This document shows positions 441 through 2,489 of a stretch of 44,272 nt of DNA, piece by piece. Location of the stretch: positions 1-44,272 of the IMG/VR virus record IMGVR_UViG_3300032265_000123, one strand, 5' to 3'. Positions within the stretch are counted from its first letter, which is position 1; each line of letters begins with the position of its first letter. The stretch is from a virus. A model generated the notes under the pieces. That model made no database searches. It saw nothing but the letters and a program-made list of their open reading frames with translations, and had not been told where the DNA came from. Made by a program: the position numbers and the translations under genes.

Positions 441-593
441 GTGGAAATCAAACTATCAGTCAATACAGTCAATCAGATTCTTGGTTACTTAGGTACACGC
501 CCATACCAAGAAGTATTTACATTGATTGAAACCATTCAAAAAGAATTTAAAGAACAATCAACTGCTATTGAGCAACAGAAAGCACCTGAGTAA
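441..593 (+). CDS. Small phage protein, 50 aa
   Basis: This starts with GTG six bases after a GGAG ribosome site that sits in the end of the fibre gene. The stop overlaps the next ATG (TAATG). The protein begins MEIKLSVNTVNQILGYLG and continues with a helical stretch of the type NQILGYLGTRPYQEVFTLIE. Similar 40-60 residue proteins are common near tail and lysis genes in tailed phages, but I know of no function. It is probably co-translated with its neighbours. Confidence 0.6.
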   Translation: MEIKLSVNTVNQILGYLGTRPYQEVFTLIETIQKEFKEQSTAIEQQKAPE

Positions 594-808
594 TGGAAGA
601 TGTTCAAGAACTTGCTACAGAAACGGACAAGAGATTGAGCGTTCACGAAGCAATTTGCGCACAGCGTTATGAGGGTATCCAAGCCCGATTTGATGACGGC
701 TCCAAACGCATGACCAAAATCGAGTATCTTTTGTATGTAGTCATTGCGGCTGTGTTGCTTGGCCCCGGCGTTGCCGCCGAGTTTGTCAAAAAGGTGCTTG
801 GACTATGA
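593..808 (+). CDS. Small membrane protein, 71 aa, lysis-cassette neighbour
   Basis: Residues 1-43 are charged and helical. Residues about 44-62 form one hydrophobic segment (YLLYVVIAAVLLGPGVAAEF), followed by a short basic tail. This single-span layout, next to a holin and an endolysin, suggests a membrane accessory of lysis. No spanin lipobox or signal peptide is evident. It overlaps the previous stop by one base (TAATG) and the next gene by four bases (ATGA). The lysis role is inferred from position. Confidence 0.6.
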   Translation: MEDVQELATETDKRLSVHEAICAQRYEGIQARFDDGSKRMTKIEYLLYVVIAAVLLGPGVAAEFVKKVLGL

Positions 809-1071
809 ATTGGTCAGATGCGCTCAAAGCAATCATCCCTATCGTGGTAATGTCGCTGGCTTGGCTATTGGGTCAGGTCAATGACTTTTCTACCCGATTG
901 ACCAAGATTGAAGGTTCCATGCCTGCGCTGATTACCAAAGAAGGTGTCCCAACTGATTCCCCAATTTCTGCCGAGCGTCGGCACATCTTGAAAGAGGAAA
1001 TATACAAGGACATCCATCAACTTCAAGTCAAAGTCCAATTGCTTGAAGAACGAGAGAAAGCGAGAAAGTAA
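805..1071 (+). CDS. Membrane-anchored coiled-coil phage protein, 88 aa
   Basis: An N-terminal hydrophobic helix (residues about 9-24, AIIPIVVMSLAWLLGQ) is followed by a linker with TKIEGSMPALIT and a charged helical tail rich in Glu, Lys and Leu. This could be an inner-membrane anchor with a coiled-coil domain, as in i-spanin-like or holin-accessory proteins. Proteins with the same middle and tail pattern occur in the lysis regions of other tailed phages. It overlaps its neighbours by four and one bases, so it is probably translated as part of the cassette. Confidence 0.6.
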   Translation: MNWSDALKAIIPIVVMSLAWLLGQVNDFSTRLTKIEGSMPALITKEGVPTDSPISAERRHILKEEIYKDIHQLQVKVQLLEEREKARK

Positions 1072-1577
1072 TGATTGACCCAATATCAGCATTTGCAATG
1101 GCTCAAGCCGCAATTGCTGGGGTTCGTAAATGTGTTGACCTTTACAAACAAGCAAAGTCTGTTGCGGCTGATGTTACACAAATCACAAGTGAAGTAACCA
1201 CGCACATTGGTGCTTTTCTTGAGGCTAAAGATTCGTTAGAGATTGCAACCGAGGAGGCTAAGAAAAAGCCTCCACCTAAAGGACAAAGTCTTAACAAAAT
1301 TGCTTTTGACAACATCATGCGCGTTAGGCAATTAGCAGAACAAGAAAAAGAACTTCGTGAATTTATGATTTACCAAACCCCCAATTGGGGTGGCATTTGG
1401 AGTGAGTTTGAGGCAGAAAGGGCAAGGCTCAGAAAGGAGCAGGAGGCCGTTGAGCGTGAGGCAAAAAAGCCGCTCAATTGGCTTTATACAAAAGGAGGAA
1501 ACTCATTGAAAAGTATCAAGTCCGAGTTCTTGTTTTCATTGCAATTCTCATTTGGGTCATTGAATTTATCGGTTTGA
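1071..1577 (+). CDS. Helical phage protein of the MIDPISAFAMAQAA family, zero-frame form
   Basis: The zero-frame product has 168 residues. The N-terminus (MIDPISAFAMAQAAIAGVRK) and a long charged helical body ending near LRKEQEAVEREAKK are typical of a phage family that usually ends in a C-terminal membrane helix. Here the zero frame instead ends in a Phe/Ser/Leu tail (from about residue 134) that does not look conserved. It leaves a 61-base gap before the next gene. The -1 frame supplies the missing membrane helix (see 1463-1642). Either ribosomal frameshifting occurs at A AAA AAG or a base is missing in the A6 tract. The function is unknown. Its position before the holin suggests a membrane or lysis role. 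Confidence 0.7.
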   Translation: MIDPISAFAMAQAAIAGVRKCVDLYKQAKSVAADVTQITSEVTTHIGAFLEAKDSLEIATEEAKKKPPPKGQSLNKIAFDNIMRVRQLAEQEKELREFMIYQTPNWGGIWSEFEAERARLRKEQEAVEREAKKPLNWLYTKGGNSLKSIKSEFLFSLQFSFGSLNLSV

Positions 1578-1642
1578 TGTACTGGGTTCATTGGGATTAC
1601 CAAAAGTCTAAATATTCTATTGAAGGAAAAAACAAAAAATGA
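1463..1642 (+). other. Candidate -1 frameshift site and out-of-frame membrane extension
   Basis: At 1463-1469 the zero frame reads (GC)A AAA AAG, the same heptamer as the E. coli dnaX slippery site. Slipping back one base gives 57 further codons, starting AAQLALYKRRKLIEKY, then a membrane helix of about 21 residues (LVFIAILIWVIEFIGLMYW), then a basic tail. The stop at 1640-1642 overlaps the next ATG (1639) by four bases, as at other junctions in this operon. The fused product would have 190 residues. Shine-Dalgarno-like AAGGAG (1434-1439) and AGGAGG (1441-1446) lie upstream, and a 6-bp hairpin (AAAGCC with GGCTTT, 1466-1485) overlaps the site. Alternatives are a sequencing indel in the A6 run, or initiation at ATT 1505 behind AGGAGG 1493-1498. 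Confidence 0.6.
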
Positions 1643-2151
1643 TTCCAATAATTGCATCATTACTAGGCACGTTGGCTGAAAATGGTCTAGGACTTTTGTC
1701 ATCTGCAATCCAAGCAAAAGGCAAAGAAGTTGTTGAAAATACACTTGGCGTAAAGATTTCCGACAATCCCAGCCCTGAAGAGGTCAGCAAACTTCGTCAA
1801 CTGCAATATGACCATGAAGAGCGATTGCTTGAGTTGGGCATCGAAAAAGCACGTTTAGAGCAAGAAGAACTCAAAGCCTTACTAGCCGCCCAAGCCAATG
1901 AAGAAAATAACATTTCTACGCGGTGGGAGGCTGATATGGCATCAGACTCTTGGCTGTCTAAAAACATTCGTCCTATGAGCCTTGTAGCCATTTTTACGGG
2001 GTATTTTTTGTTTTCCATGATGTCAGCCTTTGGATTGAATGCCAATGAAGCATATGTCAATCTTTTAGGACAATGGGGAATGTTGATCATGGGTGCCTAC
2101 TTTGGCGGAAGAACCATTGAAAAACTTGCAGAAATGAGGAAAGGCAAATGA
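1639..2151 (+). CDS. Holin of the 3-TM phage/GTA type
   Basis: The protein has 170 residues. A hydrophobic N-terminus (residues 1-25) is followed by a charged coiled-coil region (about 45-90, with LLELGIEKARLEQEEL) and two membrane segments around SLVAIFTGYFLFSMMSAFGL (about 118-138) and LLGQWGMLIMGAYFGGRTIE (about 142-161). The SWLSKNIRP motif before the second span and the GGRTIEK end are typical of the 3-TM holin family described for gene transfer agents and many phages. Holins permeabilise the inner membrane and release the endolysin encoded just downstream. The ribosome site is AAGGA at about 1623. Its start overlaps the frameshift extension of the previous gene. Confidence 0.85.
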   Translation: MIPIIASLLGTLAENGLGLLSSAIQAKGKEVVENTLGVKISDNPSPEEVSKLRQLQYDHEERLLELGIEKARLEQEELKALLAAQANEENNISTRWEADMASDSWLSKNIRPMSLVAIFTGYFLFSMMSAFGLNANEAYVNLLGQWGMLIMGAYFGGRTIEKLAEMRKGK

Positions 2152-2489
2152 GTCTAAACCAAGAACAAGCCGCCTTTCTTTTGGATGCCTGCGCCCTTAT
2201 TAAATACGCTACAGAACAGGGTTTTGTGGTCACTGGTGGTGAGTTGGCTCGTACCCCAGAACAGCAAGCCATTTATGTAAAAACAGGGCGCTCCAAAACC
2301 CTTAATTCTATACACCTCAAAAGGTGCGCCATAGACTTGAATTTCTTCAAGGAAGGGCAGATAATATGGGACAAGGGCATTCTTGCGCCATTGGGTGCTT
2401 ACTGGGAGACTTTAAACCCTAAAAACCGTTGGGGTGGAAATTTTAAGTCTTTAGTGGATTGTCCTCACTTTGAACGAAATGTGGGGTAA
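2148..2489 (+). CDS. Endolysin, M15-family peptidase
   Basis: The product has 113 residues and lacks a signal peptide. It has the M15 zinc-peptidase pattern: SIHLKRCAIDLNFF gives the first His (H56) and Asp (D63) ligands, and CPHFE gives the second His (H107) and a nearby Glu. RWGGNF precedes the last motif, as in the L-alanyl-D-glutamate/D-Ala-D-Ala peptidases of phages. It would cut the peptide part of peptidoglycan at lysis, after release by the holin. It overlaps the holin stop by four bases (ATGA). Its length is normal for a single-domain M15 endolysin. Confidence 0.9.
   Translation: MSLNQEQAAFLLDACALIKYATEQGFVVTGGELARTPEQQAIYVKTGRSKTLNSIHLKRCAIDLNFFKEGQIIWDKGILAPLGAYWETLNPKNRWGGNFKSLVDCPHFERNVG

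Follow-up and report, generated by a model that had tools for sequence, protein, structure and literature searches.

Probable -1 ribosomal frameshifting at a conserved A_AAA_AAG heptamer would give soluble and tail-anchored forms of a phage lysis-cassette protein

INTRODUCTION

Does a single gene of a phage lysis cassette encode a soluble as well as a membrane-anchored protein, and if so, by which mechanism is the second form made? The question is raised by a locus in IMG/VR virus record IMGVR_UViG_3300032265_000123, whose 44,272 bases were analysed as a whole and are referred to below as the window. An initial annotation of this DNA noted a slippery heptamer of the dnaX type, beyond which a membrane helix is encoded out of frame with the preceding helical protein. 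It proposed that frameshifting yields two forms of one protein in a lysis operon, named an indel and internal initiation as the main alternatives, and suggested a comparison of homologues. Here, we follow this proposal through the relatives of the gene. Our reading, to which we assign a probability of about 0.8, is that -1 ribosomal frameshifting would produce a soluble and a tail-anchored form of a lysis-cassette protein.

RESULTS

A zero frame and a -1 frame meet at an in-phase heptamer

The features of the locus are collected in Table 1. The sequence confirms that A AAA AAG lies at 1463-1469 in the correct phase, with codon boundaries in the window falling as GC A/AAA/AAG, the arrangement that tandem (simultaneous) -1 slippage requires. 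Translation of the -1 frame from 1469 gives 57 codons (AAQLALYKRRKLIEKYQVRVLVFIAILIWVIEFIGLMYWVHWDYQKSKYSIEGKNKK), which include the membrane segment (VLVFIAILIWVIEFIGLMYWV) and end in a TGA (1640-1642) that shares bases with the next gene's ATG at 1639 (ATGA), just as the initial annotation had described. The zero frame stops at 1575-1577, after which 61 nt remain before ATG 1639, and the 168-aa and 190-aa forms have their N-terminal 133 residues in common. In-phase A_AAA_AAG sites occur four times among the 29 long ORFs of the window; the -1 frame beyond them is long at 1463-1469 alone (57 codons, versus 10, 13, and 23 at the other three).

Table 1. Features at and around the slip site in the window
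Feature	Position	Strand	Remarks
71-aa protein, one membrane helix, lysis-cassette type	593..808	+	homologue upstream in L036 and L072
88-aa protein, N-terminal membrane helix	805..1071	+	homologue directly upstream in A9 locus L085
Zero-frame ORF, 168 aa (predicted soluble form)	1071..1577	+	helical N-terminal domain, then unconserved tail past the slip site
AGGAGG, possible Shine-Dalgarno-like stimulator	1441..1446	+	16 nt 5' of heptamer; anti-SD duplex -10.3 kcal/mol
Predicted hairpin with heptamer in loop (TTGAGCG/CGCTCAA)	1443..1485	+	-20.4 kcal/mol, z -2.67
Slippery heptamer A AAA AAG, in phase	1463..1469	+	GC before, C after; from sequence
-1 frame, 57 codons plus TGA	1469..1642	+	C-terminal part of predicted 190-aa transframe (membrane) form
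AGGAGG, possible minor internal-start signal	1493..1498	+	6 nt before ATT 1505; window lineage only
Membrane helix in -1 frame	about 1526..1588	+	from translation; preceded by KRRK
Holin-like protein	1639..2151	+	PHROG lysis/holin; weak GTA_holin_3TM
Endolysin-like peptidase (Peptidase_M15_4), M15-type	2148..2489	+	family matches

The heptamer and the -1 frame are conserved in close relatives

We scanned viral sequences with the 133 pre-slip residues and recovered 27 viral loci. The 21 close IMG/VR loci among them (73-98% identity), together with the window, make up 22 contigs with 11 distinct fusion proteins, which we call the A6G clade. GCA AAA AAG is in phase in 21/21 close loci, and the -1 frame (54-57 aa) contains a membrane helix throughout, with the zero frame stopping at 159 or 168 aa. 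The fused-frame proteins of these close relatives align gap-free across the junction. The homologue comparison suggested at the outset therefore finds that all close homologues keep the heptamer in phase, together with the frame downstream of it.

Among the 11 distinct homologues, GCAAAAAAG and GCAAAAAAGC are both invariant, the latter being one of the two invariant nucleotide stretches of at least 9 in the gene. By comparison, degenerate codon columns with an invariant amino acid are codon-invariant in only 14 of 79 cases in the same set. Conservation of the heptamer thus exceeds what amino-acid constraint imposes.

From the slip site onward, the -1 frame of the A6G clade is under purifying selection and the zero-frame tail is not. 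In the -1 frame, pN/pS is 0.40-0.45 where the two frames overlap and 0.21 past the zero-frame stop. In the zero frame, it is 0.17 up to codon 130 and about 0.8 after the slip site; the off-frames upstream of the slip site, used as a control, give 1.7. Used alone as query, the -1 segment matched nothing but the 98% relative, which has the same arrangement, so the segment was not found to exist separately, and the search for relatives in bacterial and archaeal genome contigs found none. Altogether, the two-frame arrangement is neither an assembly error nor chance.

Stimulatory elements differ between sub-branches

A hairpin lies 4-6 nt downstream of the heptamer in 9 of the 11 distinct A6G members, with energies of -9 to -17 kcal/mol and dinucleotide z scores of -2.7 to -4.5. 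As a control, the codons of the -1 frame were recoded synonymously (shuffled); all nine hairpins are stronger than these shuffles at p ≤ 0.031, and seven of them at p ≤ 0.013. The paired sequence varies by sub-branch (GCGTCTT/AAGACGT, AGGAGG/CCTCCT, CGCTTT/AAAGCG). Covariation is weak evidence on its own, with 1 of 13 pairs changed on both sides among four sequences of one branch, a result matched by 117 of 500 shuffles. The argument for the stem-loop therefore rests on the energy controls.

The window and its nearest relative, L029, have no such downstream stem-loop (p 0.40; z about 0 for window positions 1470-1540), so that stimulation is least certain in the window sequence itself. Downstream RNA structure is not obligatory for frameshifting in bacteria (PMC4066793). 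Both sequences carry AGGAGG 16 nt upstream of the heptamer; a comparable element at such a spacing was found only in L029 and L036, and the element is not conserved across the A6G clade. Shine-Dalgarno (SD)-like stimulators in E. coli act over a range of 6-17 nt (PMC4066793), and the 16-nt spacing in the window is near the edge of it. The hairpin that places the slip site in its loop is restricted to the window lineage (the window and L029), and it is probably not a classical stimulator, since the ribosome would have to melt it. Shared by all A6G members is a C directly 3' of the heptamer, a context in which A_AAA_AAG is shift-prone (PMC5009743).

A second clade switches frame through nine A's

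More distant relatives, with about 33-39% identity to the window, were brought in by two profile scans. One clade among them, comprising 49 distinct complete fusion proteins, switches to the -1 frame at the same protein position as the A6G clade, through a run of nine A's that is kept in two codon phases; one of the 49 has A10 by a G-to-A substitution that leaves the frame unchanged. In this A9 clade, the zero-frame tails are about 23-38 aa long, and the -1 frame, of about 87 aa, encodes a membrane helix. Past that helix, A9 loci (e.g., L111:2501-3144) have a conserved two-cysteine C-terminal stretch (ECYKTYKETGYIPNEC). This stretch also occurs in single-frame clades of 220 and 229 aa and is absent from the A6G clade, whose proteins end about 17 residues past the helix.

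Structure downstream of the A9 run reaches p < 0.05 in 1 of the 49 sequences under the synonymous-codon control, and no strong SD-like element was found in the 19 A9 sequences scored, as expected for transcriptional slippage. A run of nine A's is also where selection against slippage begins to show in many bacteria (PMC1088944), and Thermus dnaX uses transcriptional slippage on A9 (PMC3711429, PMC1088944). On grounds of run length and this precedent, transcriptional slippage is the likely mechanism in the A9 clade, for which ribosomal slippage on A_AAA_AAA may be an alternative.

Could the same mechanism act in the window? In that case, RNA polymerase would add an A to the A6 tract, and some A7 mRNAs would encode the long form with no ribosomal slip. 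The A9 clade speaks for this explanation, since it switches frame at the same protein position without a stem-loop or a strong SD-like element, as slippage would lead one to expect, and the Thermus gene supplies a precedent. It can also draw on L112, in which an inserted A (L112:2883-2892) gives A10 and a 216-aa fused protein in a single frame, 98.4% identical to the A9 relatives L174/L178; the A10 is either a natural variant or a homopolymer error. However, slippage is usually tied to runs longer than A6, with n > 7 according to PMC3711429 and, for many genomes, nine according to PMC1088944; a run of about 8-9 A's or more is present in the A9 clade but not in the window. The A6G clade, moreover, bears signs of ribosomal slippage in the phase of its heptamer, the final G, the 3' C, and the stem-loop. 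We consider transcriptional slippage in the window unlikely.

Still less probable is internal initiation, by which the -1 segment would be translated on its own as a small membrane protein, from ATT 1505 behind AGGAGG or from TTG 1478. The hexamer to which the initial annotation referred is present at 1493-1498, 6 nt before ATT 1505, and in IS911 an AUU start coexists with a frameshift signal (precedent cited in PMC4066793). However, AGGAGG with ATT was found only in the window and its 98% relative, and before the helix, the remaining A6G members and almost all those of the A9 clade lack a shared ATG, GTG, or TTG as well as a shared SD. With no conserved start codon in a -1 frame that is conserved from the heptamer onward, initiation at ATT 1505 does not hold up. 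That one A is merely missing, through sequencing or assembly error or recent inactivation, from a gene that is truly single-frame, as distant relatives and the A10 contig L112 are, is refuted for the A6G clade as a whole and has a negligible chance otherwise, given that the same A6 occurs in 22 contigs from many metagenomes, that selection continues on both parts, that stem-loops are lineage-specific, and that A9 is retained in 49 distinct proteins.

Single-frame relatives suggest that the frame split arose twice

In several further clades, whose proteins have 175-229 aa, a single continuous frame covers both the N-terminal domain and the helix. The proteins of Limnohabitans phage DC31 (XLZ15461.1), Roseobacter phage CRP-113 (gp42), and Pelagibacter phage Mosig_00124 are also single-frame with a membrane helix at the end, and none of the three has a slippery site at the matching place. 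The initial annotation had stated that relatives end in a membrane helix, and these clades and cultured phages bear that out. Homologues in one continuous frame without the heptamer had also been named there as an argument against frameshifting; we found this arrangement in the more distant clades only, and not among close homologues. Because the continuous frame of the distant clades is homologous to the -1 frame of the window, these clades support recoding.

A tree of the N-terminal domain, built on a short alignment of 130 columns, recovers the A6G clade (98/98) and the A9 clade (97/95) as two distinct monophyletic groups and places the A6G clade with single-frame L050/L051. The most parsimonious history would thus be one in which the frame split arose twice, and the distantly related A9 branch seems to have acquired the switch on its own, using another slippery signal. 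Alternatively, the split may have arisen once and been followed by repeated losses.

At the same place, single-frame L050 has an A8 tract (L050:2888-2895, AAA AAA AAT). A -1 slip there would truncate the protein ahead of the helix, the reverse of the arrangement in the window.

Neighbourhood, family, and fold

A similar cassette surrounds the gene in relatives, and DC31 has a comparable gene order. In the A6G locus L049 (777-1217), an Rz/Rz1-like nested spanin pair replaces the holin-like gene as 3' neighbour; such pairs adjoin the gene in both L049 and L077.

An HMM of PHROG family phrog_32327 matches residues 1-132 (E 6e-9), and 17 of 29 family members match it. This match is limited to the N-terminal domain, and the family entry gives neither a function nor recoding. 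Searches of Pfam, NCBIfam, and PDB folds returned nothing significant for function, and a BFVD search returned only uncharacterized proteins of uncultured phages. Two identities that were considered gained no support. As a holin, the protein would have a single helix, and that only in the -1 frame; it matches no holin HMM, and a separate holin-like gene adjoins it. As for a spanin, no lipobox was seen by eye, and the separate Rz/Rz1-like pairs lie next to the gene in the two loci just named.

In the AlphaFold2 model of L051, a single-frame relative, the whole protein is helical (pLDDT 85.7, pTM 0.51), and a 91-residue helix (104-194) extends through its membrane segment. The position at which the split clades slip maps inside this long helix, before its membrane part.

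DISCUSSION

We propose that 1071-1642 forms a single cistron from which two frames are decoded. Most ribosomes would stay in the zero frame and make the 168-aa soluble helical protein, and a fraction would slip by -1 on A_AAA_AAG to make the 190-aa form, whose membrane helix would anchor the helical domain to the inner membrane. The positive residues ahead of the helix suggest an N-in, C-out topology. The downstream stem-loop would promote slippage in most relatives, a part that in the window probably falls to the upstream AGGAGG. Judged from sequence comparison, recoding of the gene is very likely, and a ribosomal mechanism for it is probable.

A soluble and a membrane form within a lysis operon would fit the anatomy of the gene. 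Given the shared N-terminal domain and a position between holin-like genes and the endolysin gene, the most likely role is in lysis timing, where frameshifting would fix the ratio of soluble to membrane-tethered subunits; this role is tentative and, on balance, doubtful. We infer a helical lysis factor, with recoding determining what share of it would be tethered to the membrane. Since the zero-frame tail is unconserved, the short form could lack a function as an isoform and arise only as a by-product. In a broader version, to which we give not quite even odds, a tail-anchored lysis protein of aquatic phages would have been frame-split twice independently at the same position, once with A_AAA_AAG and a hairpin or SD element and once with A9, under selection for the soluble/tethered ratio as a lysis timer.

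Frameshifting in tailed phages has so far been found almost entirely in tail assembly chaperones, and the window gene adds a conserved case from a lysis cassette. In the PRFect survey, tail chaperones account for 2397 of the 2476 annotated SEA-PHAGES frameshift genes and hypotheticals for the remainder, and the word "holin" is absent from the paper (PMC10885494). In the literature that we searched, with incomplete coverage, no tailed phage turned up as a precedent for frameshifting in a holin or lysis gene. The chaperone shift, of G/GT type, likewise moves -1 in a phage late gene to give an extended minor product, but the gene, its position, and its protein are different. In routine gene calling, about 60 distinct proteins of the present family would be truncated and their membrane helix overlooked.

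In lambda, a lysis protein exists as holin and antiholin (S105/S107), and the ratio of these two forms sets the timing. These forms, however, come from alternative starts and not from frameshifting. In the window gene, the recoded part is the membrane anchor, so that recoding would decide between a soluble and a membrane-bound protein. Such an output from one gene is already known in principle, as an A-run in the Ebola virus glycoprotein gene yields soluble and transmembrane products (PMC5009743), although virus and protein are unrelated and the mechanism there is polymerase stuttering with no ribosomal heptamer.

A close likeness is to E. coli dnaX, which has the same heptamer, A_AAA_AAG, in the same phase and the same kinds of stimulator, a downstream hairpin and an upstream SD-like element. 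The outcome is opposite, since the dnaX shift leads to the short product and the shift proposed here would lead to the long, membrane-anchored one; the window gene also differs in belonging to a phage lysis cassette and in having no downstream hairpin. The contrast between the dnaX genes of E. coli (A_AAA_AAG with a hairpin) and Thermus (A9 without one) is mirrored by our two clades (PMC3711429, PMC1088944), which would thus offer a natural comparison of ribosomal and transcriptional slippage at one position of one gene.
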